Below are positions 34,765 through 45,085 of a stretch of DNA of 64,000 nucleotides, one piece after another. The notes below the pieces were generated by a model. That model was not told where the DNA came from, did no database searches, and saw only the letters and a list, made by a program, of their open reading frames with translations. The position numbers were made by a program, and so were the translations under genes. The stretch lies in assembly GCF_037969725.1 (NCBI RefSeq), contig NZ_CP150203.1, forward strand, positions 4,604,001-4,668,000. Reading direction: 5' to 3'. Source of the DNA: Paenibacillus sp. FSL W8-0426 (GTDB lineage Bacteria > Bacillota > Bacilli > Paenibacillales > Paenibacillaceae). How positions within the stretch are numbered: the stretch's first letter is position 1; every line of letters begins with the position of its first letter.

Positions 34765-36063
34765 TTATTTGGCCGGCACGGTTCGATACGGCTTCCGCGA
34801 AAGCACAAAATGCACCGCCGCCAATGAAGCCATCACCACCGCGCTGGCGATAAACGGAGCCGGGTGACCGACGTGGTCCCAGAGCAAGCCGGATACGATG
34901 GGGCCTACCACCATGCCCGACCCTTGAAGGGTAAGAAAGAAACCCCAGATGGCCCCTCGCTCTCCCTTGGGAATCAGCGTCGCCACAAAGGTGTTCCAGG
35001 CCGGCAAAATCATGGCATAGCTAACGCCAACCAGCATGACGATGCCGAATACAACCGGAATCGAAGTGATGGAGGCAAATGCCAGCAAACTGGCTGCAGC
35101 GAGCAAAAAGCCCATGTTCAGAAACAGGGATGTACCGAACCTGTCCACCATTTTGCCGACGGGCAGCAGGGCCAGCACCGTAATCCCTCCGCCCGCCACC
35201 AGCAGCAGGCTGTACAGATTCGGCGAAATATGCAAGTCCGTACGCGTATACAGCGTAATGACCGGGCTGAGCAATCCAATGACGAAGGATTGCATGAACA
35301 AGGCCGGATAGACGAGCGGATTTACGTTTAAAGTGTCACGCACCCGCTGCAATGTTTGCTGCACACTTTTCTTGAGCCGAAACAGCGGTGTGAACAGATG
35401 AGGTTTCGCCGGCACGTTTTTCTGTCTCCCTTTGTTCGCAGCCTCTGAATGCTCTCCCTCCACGACTACATGTCCTGGCAAGATCATGGCGACAAGAATG
35501 ACCAGGACGGCACAGCCCAGCAGCACGAGAAAAATGGTGCGGTAATCGTGATGCGTCCGCTCAAGCAGCCAATTCATGCCAACAGGGCCGAGCCCCGTGC
35601 CGCCAAGCGCAGCCATCTCCAGCGCGCCCATCGCAGTCCCGTTTTTGTTCTGGGGGCCGGACATTGCCGTTACTCCTGTCATCGCGCACGGCCATAACGG
35701 AGACGTGCCGATGCCGAGAATCAGGCAGGCCAGCGACAAGCCGAATGAGCTTTTGAAAAAAATAATCATGATGAGCGCAAGGAGGGTGCACACTAATGCC
35801 GTCACCATCGTTAGGCGAAAACCGATTCGCTCGGCAGCCCATCCTGACGGGGCACGAAACAAATTATCTCCCAAATATTGCAAAGCAAAGGCTACGCCGA
35901 TAATCCCGGCGGACAATCCAAGGACGCTCCCCATGTATACGGGAAGGACGGCGACGAGCAGCGCCCCTTTAATGACCTCGACCAAAAACAAGGTCAGCCA
36001 CATGGCGATAAAAAAAGGCGTGCGCAAAATGTTGGTCGGTTTGGTTGCTGGTTGTGGTTGCAT
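34765..36063 (-). CDS. MFS transporter
   Basis: A 432-residue membrane protein with twelve hydrophobic segments in two halves, joined by a charged loop of about 45 residues (about 205-250, rich in Lys and His). The loop between segments 2 and 3 has the motif A-like GDNLFRAPSGWAAERIGFR, and the second half has GKMVDRFGTS. Substrate and direction cannot be told. AAAGGGG precedes the ATG. It is monocistronic and divergent from speA. Confidence 0.87.
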   Translation of the reverse strand: MQPQPATKPTNILRTPFFIAMWLTLFLVEVIKGALLVAVLPVYMGSVLGLSAGIIGVAFALQYLGDNLFRAPSGWAAERIGFRLTMVTALVCTLLALIMIIFFKSSFGLSLACLILGIGTSPLWPCAMTGVTAMSGPQNKNGTAMGALEMAALGGTGLGPVGMNWLLERTHHDYRTIFLVLLGCAVLVILVAMILPGHVVVEGEHSEAANKGRQKNVPAKPHLFTPLFRLKKSVQQTLQRVRDTLNVNPLVYPALFMQSFVIGLLSPVITLYTRTDLHISPNLYSLLLVAGGGITVLALLPVGKMVDRFGTSLFLNMGFLLAAASLLAFASITSIPVVFGIVMLVGVSYAMILPAWNTFVATLIPKGERGAIWGFFLTLQGSGMVVGPIVSGLLWDHVGHPAPFIASAVVMASLAAVHFVLSRKPYRTVPAK

Positions 36064-36164
36064 GTTTTTCCCCTTTCAGCGTTCATTCGTTGGCTTATGG
36101 ACCCGCCTCAGGCGAACAAATTCGCCCAAATCCTTGTAATTTGAAATTTTGTCATAAGGATTGC

Positions 36165-36192
36165 TTGCATTCGGTCCCACATTTGCTATACT
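36165..36192 (+). promoter_or_regulatory. probable sigma-A promoter of speA
   Basis: TTGCAT and TATACT are 16 bases apart, with TGC directly before the -10. Confidence 0.55.
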
Positions 36193-36264
36193 CATTTTTG
36201 TTTGATATAAAGTTTCCTCATGAAACTGAACCCATTTTAATGAAGAAAGGTTGTGACAGCACTG

Positions 36265-37740
36265 ATGGATCACCGCCGTACGCCGCTGTTTACCGCTTTA
36301 ACCAATCACGCGGCACTCAATCCGGTGCAATTTCATATTCCGGGACATAAAAAAGGATTGGGAACGGATACCGAGTTTCGTGAATTTATCGGCGATAATG
36401 CCCTGTCCATCGATTTGATCAATATCGCTCCATTGGATGATCTCCATCAGCCTACAGGCGTCATTCAGGAAGCGCAGATGCTGGCCGCGGATGCCTTCGG
36501 AGCCGATTATACCTATTTCAGCGTACAGGGCACAAGCAGTGCCATCATGACCATGATTTTGTCAGTATGCGAACCGGGCGATAAAATTATTGTACCCCGT
36601 AACGTGCATAAATCGGTCATGTCAGCCATTATTTTCTCGGGAGCCAAACCGGTATTCGTCTCTCCCGCACAAGACGCAAATCTGGGCATCGACCACGGAG
36701 TAACCGTTCGTTCGGTCAGGCGTGCGCTTGAGCGTCATCCAGACGCCAAGGCATTGCTTGTCATTAATCCGACGTATTTCGGCGTATGTACAGATCTGAA
36801 GGAGATCGTGGAGCTGGCGCACAGCTACCAGGTTCCTGTGCTTGTCGACGAGGCGCATGGCGTGCTGATTCATTTTCACGAGGACCTGCCGCTTTCTGCG
36901 ATGGCTGCCGGAGCCGATATGTCCGCAACGAGCGTGCACAAGCTGGGCGGTTCCATGACACAGAGCTCTGTATTGAACCTGAACACCAAAAACGGGTTCG
37001 TGAACCCGCAGCGTGTACAGACGATCCTCAGTATGCTGACTTCAACCTCAACATCATATATTTTGCTGGCTTCATTGGACACGTCCAGACGCAATCTGGC
37101 ACTGAATGGCCACGCTATGGCACAGAAAGCCATCGATCTGGCTGAATTCGCCAGAAGAGCCATCAACGACATCGACGGATTGCACTGTTTCGGCAGAGAA
37201 TTGCTTGGAACGGAAGCAACCTTCAACATGGACCCGACCAAGCTTACGATCCATGTTCGTCATCTGGGCATTACCGGTTATGAGACCGAAAATTGGCTGC
37301 GTGAGCATTACAATATCGAAGTCGAGCTTAGCGACATGTACAATATTTTGTGTCTCATCACTCCGGGTGATACGGACGAATCGGTCGACATTTTGCTGAA
37401 CGCGCTGCAGGATCTGTCCCGTACGTATTACCAGGTCAACCCGGCGCATGAACTGGTCGTCAAAGTACCTGACATCCCGCAATTGATGCTCACTCCGCGT
37501 GATGCCTTCTACGGCGACACGGAAGTTATTCCGTTCAAGGAGTCTGCGGGACGCATTATAGCGGAATTTATTTATGTGTATCCTCCGGGCATTCCGATTC
37601 TGTTGCCGGGCGAGGTCATCACGCAGGAAAATATCGACTACATTGTCGATCACGTCGAAGTGGGCCTGCCCGTAAAAGGACCTGAGGACCGCAGCGTTAC
37701 AAATGTTAAGGTGATCGTGGAAGCCGACGCGATTTTCTAA
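36265..37740 (+). CDS. speA: arginine decarboxylase (Orn/Lys/Arg decarboxylase fold type I, SpeA)
   Basis: A 491-residue PLP enzyme making agmatine for polyamine synthesis. It follows Bacillus SpeA closely: FHIPGHKKG near 24, NALSIDLINI, FSVQGTSSAIMTM near 86, LVDEAHGV near 190 and the PLP lysine in ATSVHKLGGSMTQSS near 222. YPPGIPILLPGE closes the small domain. MDHRRTPLFTAL matches the start of Bacillus SpeA, so ATG 36265 is preferred. GTG 36253 is also possible; neither has ideal spacing from GAAAGG at 36245. speE-speB are not adjacent. Confidence 0.93.
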   Translation: MDHRRTPLFTALTNHAALNPVQFHIPGHKKGLGTDTEFREFIGDNALSIDLINIAPLDDLHQPTGVIQEAQMLAADAFGADYTYFSVQGTSSAIMTMILSVCEPGDKIIVPRNVHKSVMSAIIFSGAKPVFVSPAQDANLGIDHGVTVRSVRRALERHPDAKALLVINPTYFGVCTDLKEIVELAHSYQVPVLVDEAHGVLIHFHEDLPLSAMAAGADMSATSVHKLGGSMTQSSVLNLNTKNGFVNPQRVQTILSMLTSTSTSYILLASLDTSRRNLALNGHAMAQKAIDLAEFARRAINDIDGLHCFGRELLGTEATFNMDPTKLTIHVRHLGITGYETENWLREHYNIEVELSDMYNILCLITPGDTDESVDILLNALQDLSRTYYQVNPAHELVVKVPDIPQLMLTPRDAFYGDTEVIPFKESAGRIIAEFIYVYPPGIPILLPGEVITQENIDYIVDHVEVGLPVKGPEDRSVTNVKVIVEADAIF

Positions 37741-37775
37741 TCGATCCTCATGCTTCTCTCACGACAAGACTGCTC

Positions 37776-37805
37776 AAGACCAGGCCATCAGGCCTGGTCT
37801 TTTTA
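37776..37805 (+). terminator. terminator of speA
   Basis: AAGACCAGGCC-ATCA-GGCCTGGTCTT followed by TTTT. Confidence 0.92.
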
Positions 37806-38312
37806 ATGCGCAGGATCGATCTTTCGGGCAGCACAAAAGCCCCCTTGCAAAAGGCGAAAACCACAAGGAGGACGTCCACAGTGGTCAATCGAATCCAGTG
37901 ATACGAATGCCATTCGGAGCTTTTGAAGGAACAACAGGCCGTAGCGTTGATTCCCCGAAAGAGAAATCACCGAGTGATCCCGACATATGATCGATATGTC
38001 TACAAAGAGCGCCATTGGGTGGAATGCTTCTTTAATAAAATAGAAGAAATATCGCCGTTTGACAACTCGTTATGATAAATTAGCGTGTACGTTCAAGGCT
38101 TTTTTGACGCTGGCATTCATCATGGTGTGGCTTGCTTGAGTTTGAAGACACGCCCTAGATTGTATCAGGTAATGCAAGTTAAGGGCAGATGTCTATCCAA
38201 GGATAGATTCTGCCCTTTGTCATGTCCGCACCACGCACAGACAAGATATTCAATTCTATCTCATCATCAATAAAACTGCACCGCCGCTGAAGCGCCTACG
38301 TCATGCCTTCCC
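37806..38312. other. 507-base region without a supported gene; contains an orphan hairpin
   Basis: No frame here has both a ribosome binding site and protein-like composition. At 38181-38217 there is a long stem AAGGGCAGATGTCTATCC / GGATAGATTCTGCCCTT with one bulge, followed by TTTG on the plus strand. It could end an unseen small RNA or be a relic. The region marks the border to the AT-richer cluster at 38.3 kb. Confidence 0.5.
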
Positions 38313-38723
38313 TTATCTCATGACACTGAACTTCTTAGTCATGGCCCGAACGGCTTCATCTTCTCCCCATATAATAACTCCCACCACTTTGGTGGCTTCC
38401 AAAGCCATATTCGCAATTTCACTCGCATATTGTTCAAATGCGTTATTGAGTGACCGCCCAGTCTGAGAAAAAACAAGAAAATTCAATCCGCCATCGTGTT
38501 CTGAGCAAGATTTGACCAGGTTAATGAGTTGATTCTCCCCGGCCTTTAGAATGACCGTGCTGTATTGAATACCCGCATGCTGAACACCGCTCTGATCCAG
38601 TACAGGTTGACTCGAATATAACTCAGGCTCGTTCAGGGAGGCTTGTCCCATCAGAAGGGCTGCCACATTCGCTGCGGCTCCAGGCTCCAGATTTTTATCC
38701 AGTATAATAGCGATTCTTTTCAT
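38313..38723 (-). CDS. DUF2000 family protein
   Basis: A 136-residue protein of the DUF2000 family (PF09391), related in fold to type 2 peptidyl-tRNA hydrolases. It opens with KRIAIILDKNLEPGAAANVAA and contains FLVFSQTGRSLNNAFEQYA. No function is established. Its ATG overlaps the stop of the BacA-like gene (ATGA), so the two are translationally coupled and probably work together. The 15 codons upstream of this ATG lie within that gene and are not used. The pair is transcribed away from the ATP-grasp and MFS genes. An accessory enzyme or chaperone role in a small-molecule pathway is possible. Confidence 0.78.
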   Translation of the reverse strand: MKRIAIILDKNLEPGAAANVAALLMGQASLNEPELYSSQPVLDQSGVQHAGIQYSTVILKAGENQLINLVKSCSEHDGGLNFLVFSQTGRSLNNAFEQYASEIANMALEATKVVGVIIWGEDEAVRAMTKKFSVMR

Positions 38724-39283
38724 ATGAGTGCATTCACCCTCTGTGTATTTTTCGTAAAACATACCCAAGGCATCTGGATTCCCTCGCGCAGCACCTTGTA
38801 AGTCACCAGTCCGTAATGATCCGCACAGAGCTGGTTCGTGAGCGCAAGCGATCTCTCCGTATTTAGCATGACTTTCCTACAAGCCTCTGGGTTCGATGAT
38901 ACCGTGCAGTTCTCTCTATAGATGATATCAAGTTCGGTCAACAAGTATGTAGTCGCCGGATGATGATAGATAATATCGATCTGTTCTGGGCATACCACCT
39001 GAAAACCAGACAGCACCAGTGCAGGAATCTTTTCTACAAAGCTTTCAGATACCACGAGATCTGAATCCATAATGAAGCTGTTAAGCTTGGGATACGCTCC
39101 AGGAACCAGGAGACAGGAAATCTCACCTGATTTCAGGTCATCTGCTGCCGCTTCGAATTCGGGGTATGGCTTAATCAAATCAGAATTATCCATTTTTTTT
39201 GCAATATGCATACTGCAAGTCAGGAAGCCTTCATCGTCACCCAATGTGCCCAGTATAGCGTATTTCCCTTTAGTTATCTCCAT
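38720..39283 (-). CDS. BacA-like protein (prephenate decarboxylase/dehydratase fold)
   Basis: A 187-residue soluble protein resembling BacA of bacilysin synthesis, which decarboxylates prephenate without aromatising it. The fit is spread over the length. TLGDDEGFLTCSMHIAKK corresponds to the TLGPEGTSS region. CLLVPGAYPKLNSFIMDSDL corresponds to TIVPHAYDGIKHFYMRPDL. LALTNQLCADHYGL with MPW near the end corresponds to ALTNELARQKYGL with MSW. The TRF motif of true prephenate dehydratase is absent. GTSS is replaced by GFLT, so the substrate may differ. AAGGAGG precedes the ATG. The assignment is by motif pattern only. Confidence 0.65.
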   Translation of the reverse strand: MEITKGKYAILGTLGDDEGFLTCSMHIAKKMDNSDLIKPYPEFEAAADDLKSGEISCLLVPGAYPKLNSFIMDSDLVVSESFVEKIPALVLSGFQVVCPEQIDIIYHHPATTYLLTELDIIYRENCTVSSNPEACRKVMLNTERSLALTNQLCADHYGLVTYKVLREGIQMPWVCFTKNTQRVNALI

Positions 39284-39325
39284 TTATTTCTATATCCTCC
39301 TTTTTATTTCTATTTCCGGTATGAT

Positions 39326-39352
39326 AGTATACCATATAATCCCTATTGTCAA
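39326..39352 (-). promoter_or_regulatory. promoter of the BacA-like/DUF2000 pair
   Basis: TTGACA and TATACT on the minus strand are 15 bases apart, with TGG before the -10 as a TGn extension. Confidence 0.45.
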
Positions 39353-39412
39353 TTAACACTTTAACGCAACAAAAATATGTATAATCGTTCATAATATTTT
39401 ACAAAAAATGTA

Positions 39413-39440
39413 TTGAATATGGAAAATAATGAGTTATAAT
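39413..39440 (+). promoter_or_regulatory. promoter of the ATP-grasp/MFS pair
   Basis: TTGAAT and TATAAT are 16 bases apart. It lies in a very AT-rich 205-base divergent region; 60 bases separate its -35 from the minus-strand -35. Confidence 0.6.
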
Positions 39441-39488
39441 GTTGAGAAAACCATTTTTTCTATTTTTAACTTTGTTCAAGGAGGTCCC

Positions 39489-40730
39489 ATGAAAACGATC
39501 GTCTACATATCTGATTTCAGACTGCCTTTCGGCCTAAACTTCGTGAAACCACTTACCAAATTCACAGATCACAAAAGAATTCTGATTATTGAACAGCATC
39601 AATTACATCACCCCGAGCGGCTTCAGGATTATTTTGATGAAATTCGCTACGTCGATCACCTCGAATCCTACGATGCCATTCGGGAGCATGTTCTACAGAT
39701 CAGGCAAACCCATTCGATTATCGCTTTGTTAACTCCAGGTGAGAATGCCATTGAGATCGGCGGGCAGCTCCGCTCCGAATTTGGCATCCCCGGTATGCAG
39801 CGCAATCAGGCCGAGGCGGTCCGTAATAAATGGATTATGAAACAAATGCTTCATCAACGCGGAATTCGTACGTCCAAAATAGCAATCGCTCTGCAAGAGC
39901 AGGACTATTTTCATTTCTCTGCTGCCCATGGATTCCCGATCATTGTAAAGCCACTTAGCGGTTACGGAAGTATCAATACCTTCAAGTTGTCCAGTATGGA
40001 TGAGCTCTCACATTATCTGCAGCACACTAGACATGAGCTGCAGAGGGACCTGCTGGAAGAATTCATTCACGGTACAGAGTTTCACTGTGACTCCATCGTG
40101 TCCAAGGGAATCGTTGTATTTTCCTCTGTCTCTCAATACCTTTACAACTGTCTGGACATTGCAACCAAGCAGAAACCTCCGGCTAGCATTACGTTCCCCA
40201 AAGGCGCTAACGCGAACGTTATCAGGCGTATCCAAGAGATCAATTCACAAGCCATTGCTGCCCTTGGGATTAATCAATCTGTAACCCATGCCGAGCTGTT
40301 TCTCACGCCGGATGGAGAAGTGGTATTTGGAGAGATCGGGGCAAGAATCGGGGGCTCACAAGTTATGCCGCCTTGTATCAAAAACACCCATGGCGTAGAT
40401 CTTTTTGAAGCCGTAACTGATCTGGAGGTTGGCATATATACTTTTACACAGCAGCAAACGAACAACAAATTCACGGGCATGATCTGTTTTCCTTCACGCG
40501 CGGGTGTCATTCAACGAATATCAGGAATCGACGATTATAAGGATGTTTCTGGCATTATTGAGTTCAAGGTTTCTTATGAAATAGGGCAGCGTGTAGGCGA
40601 TGTGAACGATACGATGACACGATCAGGATTTGCCATTGTTGAAGGGGAGTCGTTTGAGGAATTGCGTCAGACTTTGCTGGACTTGTATGATCGATTCGTC
40701 ATTGAGGTTGAGGTTGCCGAAACTGTATAG
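39489..40730 (+). CDS. ATP-grasp family carboxylate-amine ligase
   Basis: A 413-residue ligase expected to join a carboxylate, activated as acyl phosphate, to an amine. ATP-grasp motifs are complete: IIVKPLSGYGSINTFK with Lys154, DLLEEFIHGTEFHCD with Glu190-Glu191, and HAELFLTPDGEVVFGEIGARIGGS with Glu269, Glu282 and Arg286 as the metal and phosphate ligands. The domain layout is like L-amino acid ligase BacD and carbamoyl-phosphate-synthase-like ligases. AAGGAGG is 4 bases before the ATG of MKTIVYISDF, so the 20 upstream codons are not used. The MFS gene follows closely. Substrates are unknown; a dipeptide or amino-acid amide product is inferred from context. Confidence 0.85.
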   Translation: MKTIVYISDFRLPFGLNFVKPLTKFTDHKRILIIEQHQLHHPERLQDYFDEIRYVDHLESYDAIREHVLQIRQTHSIIALLTPGENAIEIGGQLRSEFGIPGMQRNQAEAVRNKWIMKQMLHQRGIRTSKIAIALQEQDYFHFSAAHGFPIIVKPLSGYGSINTFKLSSMDELSHYLQHTRHELQRDLLEEFIHGTEFHCDSIVSKGIVVFSSVSQYLYNCLDIATKQKPPASITFPKGANANVIRRIQEINSQAIAALGINQSVTHAELFLTPDGEVVFGEIGARIGGSQVMPPCIKNTHGVDLFEAVTDLEVGIYTFTQQQTNNKFTGMICFPSRAGVIQRISGIDDYKDVSGIIEFKVSYEIGQRVGDVNDTMTRSGFAIVEGESFEELRQTLLDLYDRFVIEVEVAETV

Positions 40731-40759
40731 ATTCGGACATACACCTTACGATTTATTTT

Positions 40760-42115
40760 ATGGAATTGGGGTTTTCTTGGGGAGGATTGGAACGATTGTC
40801 TTTATCTCTATCCAAAACATACGCGGGACTAAGCCGCGATGTCTATTATCTCTGTTTGGCCAGAACCATTAACAGCACTGGAGATTTTATATTCTCGTTA
40901 ATTACCTTGGTCCTTACGCTCCAGCTTGGTATGAATGTGGTCAGTGCAGGCATTTTTGTAGCCATGGCGGCCTTGATTAGCGGTCCCGGCGTATTGCTTG
41001 GAGGCTATTTAAGTGATCTGATGGGCAAAAAAACGATTATTGTCATCGGGCAGCTGTTGTCTACATTGATGATTATCAGCTGCTCCTTCTGGTCGGGCAC
41101 GATAACCATTGGTTATCTTCTGATTGCAGTCATGTTTTTCATCAGTATTACCCGGCCTGCCTATAACGCCTTAATTATTCAACTGTGCACAGAGGAGAAG
41201 GAGCGCAAATCTGCCTTTTCTCTCATGTATCTTGGAGCCAATCTAGGCATAGCGCTTGGACCACTCATTGCCGGTTTTTTTATCAAGGATCACGTGCATA
41301 TCGTCTTTATAGGTATCGGCACAGTGTTTCTGATCTCCACCTTGATCATCTTGAAGCGGGTTCATGTCGGTGCGGGCAACAAAGCAATGGAAACCGGAGA
41401 CCATGCACATCAGATGCAACAATCACAAAAGAAACATCCCAACCATCAACATCAACAAGTATTGAAGCAATCGGCTCCTTCAATATTTAAGTTGCTATTG
41501 AGAAATCCGCTCGTCGCCTTCTTCATCGCAGTGTCATTTCTTAATTATTTTATCTACATGCAATACTCGTTTAGCCTTCCACTTCAGATGAATCATTCGT
41601 TTGGAGAGAATGGAGCTGCTTATTATGGGTCTGTCATGACCATTAATGCGATCAGTGTTATTATTCTCACCACGTTGGTCCTGTCTGCTACCCACAGCTT
41701 CACAGCTCAGAATTCCATAGCGGCAGGTGCACTCTTTTATGGAATTGGATTTGGCGTTCTCTACCTGCTGAGCGATTTGCCTCATTTCGCTATCGTTGTT
41801 TTTTCCACTGTGCTGTGGACCATCGGGGAGATTCTGGTGCAAACCAATATCAACCTGTATATCGCGTCACGTGTACCCGATACCCATCAGGGAAGGTTTA
41901 ACGGCTTGCTGTTATTCGTAGGTTGTCTCGGTTACACACTTAGTCCATATTTGACCGGCCTTTTCATTCGAAGCGTAGATATGGAGAGTGTATGGATTGT
42001 TATTCTGGGTATCAGTCTGTTCTATGCGTTATGCATGTCCCTTCTCTCGTATATTGAAAAAAGCTCCCCTACCAAACGCGAAATGGATTCAACAGATTTA
42101 TCAAAAAGTATCTAA
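40760..42115 (+). CDS. MFS exporter with a His/Gln-rich central loop
   Basis: A 451-residue (or 439-residue) membrane protein with about twelve segments. Motif A reads GGYLSDLMGKKTII near 80, and the second half has RVPDTHQGRFNG. The loop between segments 6 and 7 is unusually His/Gln-rich (HAHQMQQSQKKHPNHQHQQV) and could bind metal. No Shine-Dalgarno precedes the ATG at 40760; the TTG at 40796 has GGGGAGG 10 bases upstream and may be the true start. It follows the ATP-grasp gene by 29 bases, like bacE after bacD, so export of and self-protection against the product are likely. Confidence 0.82.
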   Translation: MELGFSWGGLERLSLSLSKTYAGLSRDVYYLCLARTINSTGDFIFSLITLVLTLQLGMNVVSAGIFVAMAALISGPGVLLGGYLSDLMGKKTIIVIGQLLSTLMIISCSFWSGTITIGYLLIAVMFFISITRPAYNALIIQLCTEEKERKSAFSLMYLGANLGIALGPLIAGFFIKDHVHIVFIGIGTVFLISTLIILKRVHVGAGNKAMETGDHAHQMQQSQKKHPNHQHQQVLKQSAPSIFKLLLRNPLVAFFIAVSFLNYFIYMQYSFSLPLQMNHSFGENGAAYYGSVMTINAISVIILTTLVLSATHSFTAQNSIAAGALFYGIGFGVLYLLSDLPHFAIVVFSTVLWTIGEILVQTNINLYIASRVPDTHQGRFNGLLLFVGCLGYTLSPYLTGLFIRSVDMESVWIVILGISLFYALCMSLLSYIEKSSPTKREMDSTDLSKSI

Positions 42116-42559
42116 TTCTTTGTGAGTAGAAGCTCTCTACTATAGCTTAAACGAGGAATCAAAAAGTAAAGGGATCACTCTGAAGTGACCATTTTGGGGA
42201 AGTACCAGCGAAGCTGACAGCACTCGCAAAGTAGATAGTATTAAATGGGGAATCTATGGCTAACTTCGTTGTATTCCTCCTGTGCATCAGTGATGGCAAG
42301 CTTGGAATAAACTTCTACTTCAGGCCTTCATGCCCCGAATACGGTTGGATCAGCATCATCAATGCCTTGTTTTTTAAGCCACGTTAAAAGAAAAATGCCG
42401 CATCATGGTCTGTCGTTGATTAAGCTCAGAGCGGTATAGAACAAGAGCGGGTTATCGAAAAGATAGCTTGCTCTTGTTTTGTTCAAAAAGAGTGACGGAA
42501 TTCAGCAGGCAAATGGAACGGATGGCGAGGCCTCTTAAAAAAGAAGGAGGTTACGTCAG
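42116..42559. other. non-coding, relic-like region with a terminator hairpin
   Basis: No intact gene is seen. On the minus strand, about 42243-42323 reads as a 26-codon protein-like fragment (PEVEVYSKLAITDAQEEYNE) with stops and a frame break upstream, suggesting a decayed gene. A hairpin AACAAGAGC / GCTCTTGTT at 42440-42478, followed by TTG, may terminate plus-strand transcripts from the ATP-grasp/MFS pair. Confidence 0.45.
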
Positions 42560-43073
42560 ATGGATGAGTATGCGAACTCATTAAAAAGAAGACTGACATC
42601 TCTCTATAACCTTCTGCATTTGAACGCAGTTTATGATCTCGCAACAGACGTCTTTCTGGCCTGTATTTGCCCTCGGGTGGAGAGTTTGATTTGATCGGAA
42701 CGTTCATCTGACACTCACCAAAAAACAATCCAAAGAAATCAAGGCTCAGCCTGAGATGTATAAGTTCGTTCCTTCCACGTCAAACTTTGATTTTTTGGAT
42801 TTGCATGAAAATTTGTTTTATCCGATTTCATTTTGAGTGGTTCGTTTCATCCTGCCAAGTGGAGCCAATGAAATGATTCTGACCAATCTTTCAGGTCTGA
42901 CGTATTGTCCTGCAAAGAGACGAGAGTCCATCACCCAAGAGATTTTCGCCAGAATGAACAGGTACAATTTCGCTGAGATGATGACCTCGCACGTCATCAT
43001 TTCGGGAATGGATATTTTTCAAGCGGAGTTTTTCTCCGTTGTGTTTGCTATACGCTTTTTCCTTGCTTGCACT
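42560..43073 (+). pseudogene. degenerate IS4-family transposase remnant
   Basis: Fragments in order match the C-terminal half of IS4-family DDE transposases. HLNAVYDLATDVFL (from 42560 frame) and GGEFDLIGTFI come first. After frame changes follow LTKKQSKEIKAQPEMYKFV, FDFLDLHENLFYPISF, an in-frame TGA, VVRFILPSGANEMILTNLS, RRESITQEIFARMNRYNFAEM and TSHVII. About 40 residues that should lie between LTNL and the ITQEIF segment, including the catalytic Glu helix region, are deleted. No terminal inverted repeats were found. The relic is dead and marks past mobility next to the BacA-like cluster. Confidence 0.8.
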
Positions 43074-43109
43074 AAAAAAAAACGGCACAGATTGTTCTCC
43101 CATGCCGTT
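43074..43109 (-). terminator. terminator of the DUF1292 gene
   Basis: AACGGCA / TGCCGTT with a 15-base loop, followed by a run of T residues on the minus strand. Confidence 0.8.
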
Positions 43110-43162
43110 TCGAGTCCATAAATTCACTTTGTTTTGTCTATTGAACTTATTTGGAGCCTGAC

Positions 43163-43480
43163 TTATTCCTGTCCTGCAACGAGTTCGTTATAAGCCGCTT
43201 CAACACGGCTCCACTCTGCTTCGTCTTCGATATTGTAGAGTACCATTTCCTCGTTTTCTTCTTCCATGCGGAAAATGATACCGTCAGCTTCAGGATTGTT
43301 ACGTTCCAGCAGGAGCGCATAAACATGGTCTTCCACGTCAAACGTCTCCACCAAAACCATCTCCACGTCGTTTCCGTTCTCGTCTGTCAGCGTCAGAAGA
43401 ACTTCTTCATGCTCGTGGTCGTGGTCATGATCGTGACCGCAGCCGCAGGCATCGCCGTGTTCATGTGTGTGATCGCTCAT
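43163..43480 (-). CDS. DUF1292 family protein with a His/Cys-rich N-terminus
   Basis: A 105-residue acidic protein. Residues about 30-100 match DUF1292 (YrzB type): LTLTDENGNDVEMVLVETFDVED, YALLLERNN and GIIFRMEEE. The first 25 residues read HTHEHGDACGCGHDHDHDHE, an unusual potential metal-binding tail. The ATG of MSDHTHEHG has GAGGT 7 bases upstream; the 24 codons before it are not used. In many Bacillota DUF1292 genes follow ruvX/alaS; here it stands alone. Function unknown. Confidence 0.85.
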   Translation of the reverse strand: MSDHTHEHGDACGCGHDHDHDHEHEEVLLTLTDENGNDVEMVLVETFDVEDHVYALLLERNNPEADGIIFRMEEENEEMVLYNIEDEAEWSRVEAAYNELVAGQE

Positions 43481-43577
43481 TGATATACCTCGCTTCATCG
43501 ATTGAAATTGTGTAACCTTGCATATCGTAACATGTTCATAGTGCCAGGTCAATTTCGACCGCGGGCGTGATTCGGGT

Positions 43578-44132
43578 TTATTCGTTTAGTGCGGTAATGA
43601 CTTTCTCGGCGACCTGCACGTAATTGCTGTTTGCATTTTCCTTAATATGAAAACCGATTGAATATTTGCCTGCGCGGCTGAAATCATACGTGAAATCATA
43701 CGTGCGGAACCAGAAGTTATCTTTCTGGGTTGTCAGCTCCTGGGACTGAATATCCTTCACCTGCCCGCTCGGGTTCGTAATCGTCAACTTCACGGCAGCC
43801 ACGTCGGTCGTCAGACTGTCGACTTGTGAGAACACGTTGAACTTCAGCTTGCCCACGTTCACGTTGCCAAATACAGTGTCTCCTTTGAACAGAAAAATAT
43901 GTACATTGGGCTTAATCACCGTCACCCGCTTGCTACTGTTGTCCCATTTGGCGATGCCGCCCGCTTCCCTCACAGGAACATAGGTGGTTCCATCAATCAA
44001 ATAACCGCCGTCAGCCGCTTCCTTGCCATTGATGAGTACCCGAATCTTCTCGTTCACGGAATCTGCAAACAGTAGAGATCCGCCAAGCAAGGAAAATATG
44101 CTGACACAGAGCAAGACCCTCTTCCACTTCAT
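43578..44132 (-). CDS. secreted protein with a copper-amine-oxidase-N-like stalk domain
   Basis: A 184-residue protein with a signal peptide (KRVLLCVSIFSLLGGSLLFADS), then a stalk domain unit: IRVLINGKEAADGGYLIDGTTYVPVREAGGIAKWD. The C-terminal 110 residues form a beta-rich domain (HIFLFKGDTVFGNVNVGKLKF, NFWFRTYDFTYDF). Stalk domains are common in secreted and wall-associated Paenibacillus proteins. GGGAGGG precedes the ATG by 11 bases. It is probably exported; the function is unknown. Confidence 0.82.
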   Translation of the reverse strand: MKWKRVLLCVSIFSLLGGSLLFADSVNEKIRVLINGKEAADGGYLIDGTTYVPVREAGGIAKWDNSSKRVTVIKPNVHIFLFKGDTVFGNVNVGKLKFNVFSQVDSLTTDVAAVKLTITNPSGQVKDIQSQELTTQKDNFWFRTYDFTYDFSRAGKYSIGFHIKENANSNYVQVAEKVITALNE

Positions 44133-44344
44133 GCGCCAATTTCCCTCCCCTGCTGCTGCTGTTGTACATTTATACTGCAGATTCGCTCACAAAGTTGCGC
44201 CGTTTTTCATTATTTTTCATTTTTTATCCAACATTTTTTCCACTCCATGGATTGAAAAAAAGAGATTTCCTGTGTGTCAGGAAACCTCCATGATCTCGTT
44301 GTTGCCAACCCCTTCTCAGCCGAAGCAAATTCACATGCCCATGC

Positions 44345-45085
44345 TCAAATGAAGCCGCCATTGGCACGGAGCGTTTGCCCGGTAACCCACCGGGATTCAG
44401 GCCCGACTAGGAAAGAAACGACGTCGGCAATGTCTTCCGGTTCCCCCAGCCGCCCAAACGCATTCAATTTGCGCATGCCTTCTATCTGCTGCTCCGTTTT
44501 TCCCTCAGTAAACAATTCAGTAAGGACCGGACCCGGCGCCACCGCGTTAATCGTGATTTGCCTGGACCCGAATTCCTTCGCCAATTGGCGCGTGAATTGC
44601 TCCACGGCTCCTTTCGTGCCAGCATACACGCTGTAAGCCGGAAACATTTGCCCCACTACCGAGGTGGAGAAATTGACGATGCTTCCGCCTTCGGTCATAT
44701 GTTTCATCGCCTGCTGGCATGCAAAAAACGTCCCCTTCACATTGATCGCAAACTGTTGGTCAAACTCCTGCTCCGTGACATCGGCAAGCGGCGTTGTTTT
44801 CATGATGCCTGCATTGTTAACCAAAATGTCCACTTTGCCTAACTGGGCAATCGCCTCTTCAAACAGCCGTTCAACCTCCTCCTTGCGTGCCAGGTTAGCT
44901 TGGACAACGGCTGCGCGTACGCCTTTTTGCCGAATGGCCTGTGCCGCCGCCTCAGCATGGACAACATTGCTTGTATAGTTGATTACGATGTCCGCGCCCT
45001 GGTCTGCCAGTTTCTCCGCAATGGCACGTCCGATGCCGCGTGATGAGCCTGTTACGATCGCTACTTTGCCGCTTAAATGGTTCAT
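44345..45085 (-). CDS. short-chain dehydrogenase/reductase (FabG-like)
   Basis: A 246-residue classical SDR: NAD(P)-binding TGSSRGIGRA near 12-21, NNAGIM near 89, catalytic Ser in NFSTSV near 140 and YAGTK near 153-157. The C-terminal VTGQTLRANGGF is typical. Probably NADPH-dependent (Arg after the glycine motif). The gene lies 4 bases after the TetR gene in one operon, so the repressor likely controls it. The substrate is unknown; a role in detoxifying a small carbonyl compound is one possibility. Confidence 0.9.
   Translation of the reverse strand: MNHLSGKVAIVTGSSRGIGRAIAEKLADQGADIVINYTSNVVHAEAAAQAIRQKGVRAAVVQANLARKEEVERLFEEAIAQLGKVDILVNNAGIMKTTPLADVTEQEFDQQFAINVKGTFFACQQAMKHMTEGGSIVNFSTSVVGQMFPAYSVYAGTKGAVEQFTRQLAKEFGSRQITINAVAPGPVLTELFTEGKTEQQIEGMRKLNAFGRLGEPEDIADVVSFLVGPESRWVTGQTLRANGGFI

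Follow-up and report, generated by a model that had tools for sequence, protein, structure and literature searches.

Among the known systems closest to the one reported here is the bacilysin (bac) pathway of Bacillus, in which, according to the accessible part of one account (PMC9147277), a BacA-type enzyme, an amino acid ligase and an exporter serve the production of the antibiotic bacilysin. Here, we describe a cassette of four genes in Paenibacillus sp. FSL W8-0426, lying within a stretch of 64,000 nucleotides (64 kb) that was analysed as a whole and that we call the window. The cassette encodes a BacA-like protein, a DUF2000 family protein, an ATP-grasp L-amino acid ligase and a major facilitator superfamily (MFS) exporter, and an earlier note, made from the sequence alone, had read it as bacilysin's functional set in reduced form. 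As an analogy of roles (a BacA-superfamily enzyme, an ATP-grasp amino acid ligase and an MFS exporter) that reading is fair, but the cassette is not a cut-down bac operon: its four open reading frames (ORFs) include no BacB-, BacC-, BacF- or BacG-like gene, its flanks vary between sites, its ligase is only 22-23% identical to two BacD proteins, its BacA-like protein falls in a separate clade, a DUF2000 protein is added, and its MFS protein had no BLASTP match at E 1e-3 to one BacE (from L075), a single pairwise test. On these sequence comparisons the likeness to bacilysin is one of roles, not descent, the BacA superfamily itself excepted, and the cassette fails as a member of that pathway. The reading we lean towards is that it forms a minimal pathway, self-contained and able to move, that makes a small non-aromatic dipeptide from prephenate and exports it.

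The four genes are a fixed unit and not chance neighbours. All four ORFs are intact in the window, as two divergent pairs at 38313-42115 (from the ORF listing and translations); the ATG of the DUF2000 gene overlaps the stop codon of the BacA-like gene by 4 nt (ATGA), and 29 bases separate the ligase gene from the MFS gene, in agreement with the coordinates and spacing noted earlier. The same four genes in the same divergent order were present in 23 of 23 loci (the window and 22 fetched), and again on the Priestia aryabhattai plasmid p-LAD2 (typed mobilizable), where a class I/II aminotransferase gene adjoins the MFS gene (plasmid gene tables are incomplete); the two gene pairs thus do co-occur in other genomes. 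A ligase orthologue of at least 81% identity occurs in 20 of 75 genus genomes, all 20 of them among the 23 loci. A search for the BacA-like protein itself was positive in 16 of 295 family genomes, and a profile search matched 26 of 344 order genomes, 21 as close family and five as weak and more distant matches. Named loci in the genome collection number 16, 14 from Paenibacillus (including P. xylanexedens, P. amylolyticus, P. pabuli and P. spiritus) and two from more distant Rhizobiaceae relatives. Many of the entries P0012-P0048 are metagenome-derived relatives; when 18 of 49 BacA-like entries were set against 27 of 35 DUF2000 entries, eight pairs had an identical longest-contig size (one being the window's own genome), which suggests linkage. 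That these genes are neighbours by chance, with no common pathway, is highly improbable given their occurrence together in 23 of 23 loci, across at least five chromosomal settings and on a plasmid.

The roles of the plus-strand pair are the most readily assigned. The ligase scores 54.1 bits against LAL_C2 (cut-off 29.4) and 38.3 against ATP-grasp_4 (cut-off 27), and shows the features of an L-amino acid ligase, namely an ATP-grasp domain with a LAL C-terminal domain and an E-x-G/A-x-R-I-G-G region. Its best matches among solved structures are L-amino acid ligases of the same domain composition, 4wd3 (which we take to be RizA) at E 7e-33 and BL00235 (3vot) at E 6e-15. BacD is a far weaker match (E 4e-5 to 1.5e-4), and the BacD-type model NF053745 gives 29.3 bits against a cut-off of 850. 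By these comparisons the ligase is RizA-like, not BacD-like, although no rhizocticin-type genes were recognised among the four ORFs of the cassette. A second ATP-grasp protein, 42-45% identical and present in six of 75 genus genomes, was considered as a version of the cassette ligase and rejected as a paralogue, since it lies in a different operon in the four of six loci whose gene order was read. That operon (L116-L121; order read in L116, L118, L119 and L121) holds a 350-aa protein, presumably YqcI/YcgG-like, an MFS-like membrane protein and a TetR-like regulator (by eye); three of the loci read add a 422-aa protein. The exporter of the cassette matches MFS_1 at 145.9 bits (cut-off 33.4).

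Fold comparison assigns the BacA-like protein (187 aa) to the prephenate dehydratase (PDT) fold, the outcome that a profile and structure check proposed in the earlier note was meant to decide, even though the PDT profile itself stays below its cut-off. The protein ends directly after the PDT-like domain and has no ACT domain. In this it differs from GqqA (7am0), a prephenate dehydratase-like N-acyl homoserine lactone acylase, which has an ACT domain and PDT activity according to the accessible part of its description (PMC8192741). In our alignment the protein carries the BacA-type motifs A-Y and M-x-W where PheA has TRF; we use this pattern as the mark of a BacA-type protein, a criterion derived from the alignment made here and not from a paper. 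The earlier claim that GFLT stands where BacA has GTSS proved to be a misalignment: once a 3-residue insertion is allowed for, T22-C23-S24 aligns to T-S-S. In the tree, PheA rows are divided from the rest by a branch with support 100/99, with three long rows as the only outgroup and a midpoint root, and the cassette protein falls in a deep clade of its own outside Bacillus BacA; one Paenibacillaceae protein (L076) joins the PheA rows weakly (84/50).

It is unlikely that the enzyme acts instead on a relative of prephenate such as arogenate, or on another keto acid, so that the product would be a small peptide not of the anticapsin or dihydrophenylalanine kind. Consistent with that alternative are the deep separate clade, the insertion in the first motif, the low PDT score and, in 25 of 25 cassette-type rows, S-N in place of the S-T shared by BacA and PheA. 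The same S-N, however, is common to sister-clade proteins, two of whose loci carry chorismate mutase/3-deoxy-D-arabino-heptulosonate 7-phosphate (DAHP) synthase genes, and BacA's A-Y and M-x-W are retained.

We therefore retain, as the reading we lean towards, a prephenate-derived dipeptide pathway of four steps, whose chemistry we infer from the families concerned. The BacA-like enzyme would decarboxylate prephenate without aromatising it, giving a keto acid of the dihydro-4-hydroxyphenylpyruvate type, which an aminotransferase would convert to a cyclohexadienyl or cyclohexenyl amino acid; this second enzyme would be encoded elsewhere in Paenibacillus and within the cluster on the Priestia plasmid. 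The RizA-like ligase would then couple the non-aromatic amino acid to a second one, a step that may in addition mask a toxic residue, and the MFS protein would export the product. For the Hil operon, ligation has been suggested as self-detoxification, in the accessible part of that report (PMC3684760). The DUF2000 protein, made in step with the BacA-like enzyme, would most likely handle or protect against the unusual amino acid rather than build it, and is the least certain part of the scheme. The dipeptide-type pathway with self-export proposed in the earlier note is partly borne out, as regards the unit, the folds, the motifs and the analogy of roles; its chemistry would follow from family resemblance.

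Several observations weigh against this scheme. The PDT profile gives the BacA-like protein 15.5 bits, under the Pfam cut-off of 25.2; this profile is PheA-centred, so we do not treat it as defining BacA-type membership, and its cut-off is likewise missed by L076, L077 and L080, and passed by the Bacillus BacAs of L074 and L075 (where BacC, BacD, BacE and BacF were named by eye). No NCBIfam model matches the protein, and single-sequence and profile searches of sequences in the Protein Data Bank (PDB) found nothing credible, in contrast to the fold comparison. With S-N at this position, the enzyme may use another substrate. The Paenibacillus cassettes contain no aminotransferase gene. A Rhizobiaceae protein of the same clade (L046) is encoded beside an EamA exporter; the 20 kb read there hold no DUF2000 gene, and we noticed no ATP-grasp gene among the ORFs. 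Finally, the exporter's only sequence matches among solved structures are three weak ones to di-/tripeptide transporters (best E 3.5e-5), which we take to be importers. The product could also be a signal or a metal-binding dipeptide and not an antibiotic, for the cluster has no marked target or immunity gene save the exporter and perhaps the DUF2000 gene; we consider this improbable, as the known pathway with the same three roles yields the antibiotic bacilysin (PMC9147277, accessible part).

The earlier note set DUF2000 apart as foreign to bacilysin synthesis. It recurs near BacA-family genes in four separate arrangements, of which the window's cassette is the first. The second, on Pantoea, Pseudomonas and Photobacterium plasmids (L125, L130 and L132), comprises Dabb, DUF2000, AMP-type ligase, branched-chain aminotransferase, BacA, CMD, OCD and LysE genes (the Photobacterium locus, being unannotated, was read from its ORFs and its DUF2000 profiled); like the cassette it combines a BacA-family gene and DUF2000 with an exporter and a ligase predicted to activate acids, but its ligase type, exporter and BacA clade are different and an aminotransferase is included. 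In the third, from Vibrio halioticoli, the matched stretches of BacA and DUF2000 are 41 bases apart within overlapping ORFs, with LysE and AraC genes within the following 3 kb, and in the fourth, from a Paenibacillaceae genome (L076), the order is BacA-like, EamA, DUF2000. Six plasmid records common to the match lists of both families (the best 40 of 84 BacA-type and 40 of 52 DUF2000 records) hold the two genes within 2.5 kb of each other. DUF2000 is rare: the cassette type occurs in four of 118 family genomes, each time at a cassette, the Pfam family in four of 249 phylum genomes, two of them cassette genomes, and the Pantoea query matched 52 of 72,556 plasmid records.

When 32 loci were checked with profiles, DUF2000 was found in seven of the 21 with a BacA-family gene (L044, L076, L124, L125, L130, L131 and L132); loci had been chosen partly for having one gene or the other, so the counts are not rates. 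Against such a link, DUF2000 was not found in the stretches read at the other 14 (L046, L047, L073-L075, L077-L080 and L134-L138), and a BacA-family gene was missing from the stretches read at 11 DUF2000 loci (L126, L127, L133, L139 and L142-L148), of which those for L126 and L127 were only 2-3 kb. We tentatively propose that, in both Bacillota and Gammaproteobacteria, DUF2000 repeatedly serves as a functional partner of BacA-family enzymes. The two together would make up a portable module with which cells make, or survive, non-aromatic amino acids derived from prephenate, and this module would have acquired various ligases and exporters on at least four occasions. Of the complete versions seen here, the window's cassette would be the smallest.

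What DUF2000 does within such a module is harder to say. The cassette protein matches PF09391 at 72.8 bits (cut-off 25), and fold comparison predicts a peptidyl-tRNA hydrolase 2 (PTH2) fold. Protection or handling of any kind is a role we suggest tentatively. The neighbours of the 11 loci lacking a BacA-family gene lean towards handling or tolerance of amino acid-like compounds, with an AraC-type gene at six (L126, L139 and L144-L147), an Lrp-type gene at two (L133 and L142), LysE exporters at two (L139 and L146) and EamA at one (L126). An isomerase-type step on the BacA product, by which a PTH2-fold enzyme would replace BacB in a two-enzyme module, seems to us rather doubtful. It would accord with the 4-nt overlap with the BacA-like gene, and no operon among the 14 BacA-type lineages read unites a BacB-type cupin with DUF2000 (cupin in none of four lineages with DUF2000 and three of ten without). 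Mutual exclusion of the two is not significant (Fisher p 0.51), however, and the Pantoea stretch has a small cupin gene ~6.4 kb away on the other strand, counted as outside the operon; the DUF2000 loci without a BacA-family gene also speak against it, and we know of no isomerase of PTH2 fold. The fold might instead point to a tRNA-directed factor that clears the analogue from mischarged tRNA, but we think this unlikely. The GKGK motif of PTH2 bears the catalytic lysine; a phage-encoded PTH2 protein has it, but by eye DUF2000 shows GAAAN or GxxxN there, and the lack of this lysine motif sets the cassette protein apart in comparison with PTH2 hydrolases and the DUF2000-like structure 2gax (Atu0240). 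A profile comparison of DUF2000 with the one phage PTH2 was not significant, only 11 columns being aligned. A DUF2000 profile search of PDB sequences gave WD-repeat matches, dismissed as an artefact, and a weak match to 2gax (E 0.074).

BacA-family genes were also met in other company. In three same-family genomes (L077-L079) another BacA-family protein, of the S-N sister clade, is followed by class I/II aminotransferase and ABC transporter genes (both profiled in L077 only; the ABC genes of L078 and L079 were recognised by eye). At L073 (G570:C30) a BacA-like gene is followed by genes for a cupin, a thiamine-dependent enzyme, an AMP-ligase (by eye) and a DAHP synthase/chorismate mutase fusion, in a larger cluster with a likely phosphopantetheinyl transferase (by eye). 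A Pseudoalteromonas xiamenensis plasmid (L134) has, by annotation, a BacA-like gene with aminotransferase, DUF6421, two ATP-grasp genes, oxidoreductases and DAHP synthase/chorismate mutase, and a Streptomyces plasmid (L138) has a set related to the Dabb/BacA/LysE operon without DUF2000. An EamA-like protein in L047 was named by eye.

The cassette's position in the chromosome suggests movement within the genus. Flanking genes in common within 6 kb assign 18 of the 23 loci to one chromosomal place, and the window with its conspecific to another; the remaining three each stand elsewhere, with no flank in common with the rest. At the window's place, the cassette was missing from all 28 other genus loci that were read (of 73 other genomes with a match): there the Orn/Lys/Arg (OKR)-decarboxylase-like gene directly adjoins the DUF1292 gene. 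Ten of the 28 possess it at another site. Therefore ~5.4 kb was inserted here. Third-position divergence relative to the OKR-decarboxylase-like gene is 0.72 for the BacA-like gene and 0.88 for the ligase gene between the window and ten carriers, and 0.75 and 0.90 among those carriers. Because cassette divergence thus scales with that of a core neighbour gene, a recent transfer from a distant donor is unsupported, and the cassette appears to be a long-standing resident of the genus that has been moved or exchanged locally, rather than a fresh import. The earlier description of the pathway as acquired accordingly stands for this site and not for a recent arrival from afar. The cassette is AT-richer than its flanks, as also noted earlier (43.9% GC, against 52.7% on the left, 48.7% on the right and 50.3% in the window). 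The adjacent dead transposase was first labelled IS4, a label without support: the left-flank insertion sequence debris (37888-38161) has a 76% identical counterpart elsewhere in the genome, and an 80-aa ORF that overlaps this counterpart reaches 65.3 bits with the IS5 model (cut-off 110) and 18.4 with IS4, both below cut-off. On the right flank, an ORF at 42837-43121 that by eye resembles a transposase (tail) has no Pfam or NCBIfam match, and the DNA around it has no second copy in the genome; we rejected it as unconfirmed.

Features of the locus are collected in Table 1. By eye, the leading gene of each pair has a good ribosome-binding site, AAGGAGG preceding the BacA-like gene and standing just upstream of the ligase ATG at 39489 (the listed ORF opens earlier, at 39429); for the MFS protein, TTG 40796, behind GGGGAGG, is by eye a likelier start than ATG 40760. 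A promoter-box scan found 14 such sites against 9.1 expected, weak evidence taken alone; TGTCAA, the -35 box TTGACA of the minus-strand promoter, does not vary among the 24 aligned loci, the plasmid copy included. An Rfam search of 36000-44500 gave no match up to E 0.5, and PADLOC matched none of the four proteins at E 0.01.

Table 1. Features of the cassette and its surroundings, in window positions.
Feature	Position	Strand	Remarks
~5.4 kb insertion with cassette	37741..43162	.	between Orn/Lys/Arg-decarboxylase-like gene and DUF1292 gene
Decayed IS5-like remnant, left flank	37888..38161	-	strand inferred from related copy
DUF2000 family protein	38313..38723	-	136 aa; predicted PTH2 (Bit1) fold; PF09391
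BacA-like protein	38720..39283	-	187 aa; prephenate dehydratase fold without ACT domain; motifs T-x-S, A-Y, H-x-A, S-N, M-x-W
Shared AT-rich divergent promoter region	39284..39488	.	205 bp, 25% GC
Promoter-like TTGACA-17-TACTAT ahead of BacA-like/DUF2000 pair	39324..39352	-	TTGACA kept in 24/24 loci
Promoter-like TTGAAT-16-TATAAT ahead of ATP-grasp/MFS pair	39413..39440	+	
ATP-grasp L-amino acid ligase, RizA-like, LAL_C2 C-terminal domain	39489..40730	+	413 aa
MFS transporter	40760..42115	+	451 aa counted from ATG 40760

Among open-licence papers we found none on DUF2000, none joining L-amino acid ligases and Paenibacillus, and none joining peptidyl-tRNA hydrolase, biosynthetic gene clusters and self-resistance. 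What is new here is a putative BacA-family dipeptide pathway built from different parts, together with the recurrence of DUF2000 near BacA-family genes. If our reading is correct, the cassette would offer a compact, expressible route to dipeptides of non-aromatic amino acids outside the bacilysin lineage, and DUF2000 would gain a testable setting, in which it is needed either for making a compound or for surviving its making. The design of a ligase plus an exporter around a BacA-family enzyme would then have been assembled more than once, from unrelated parts.

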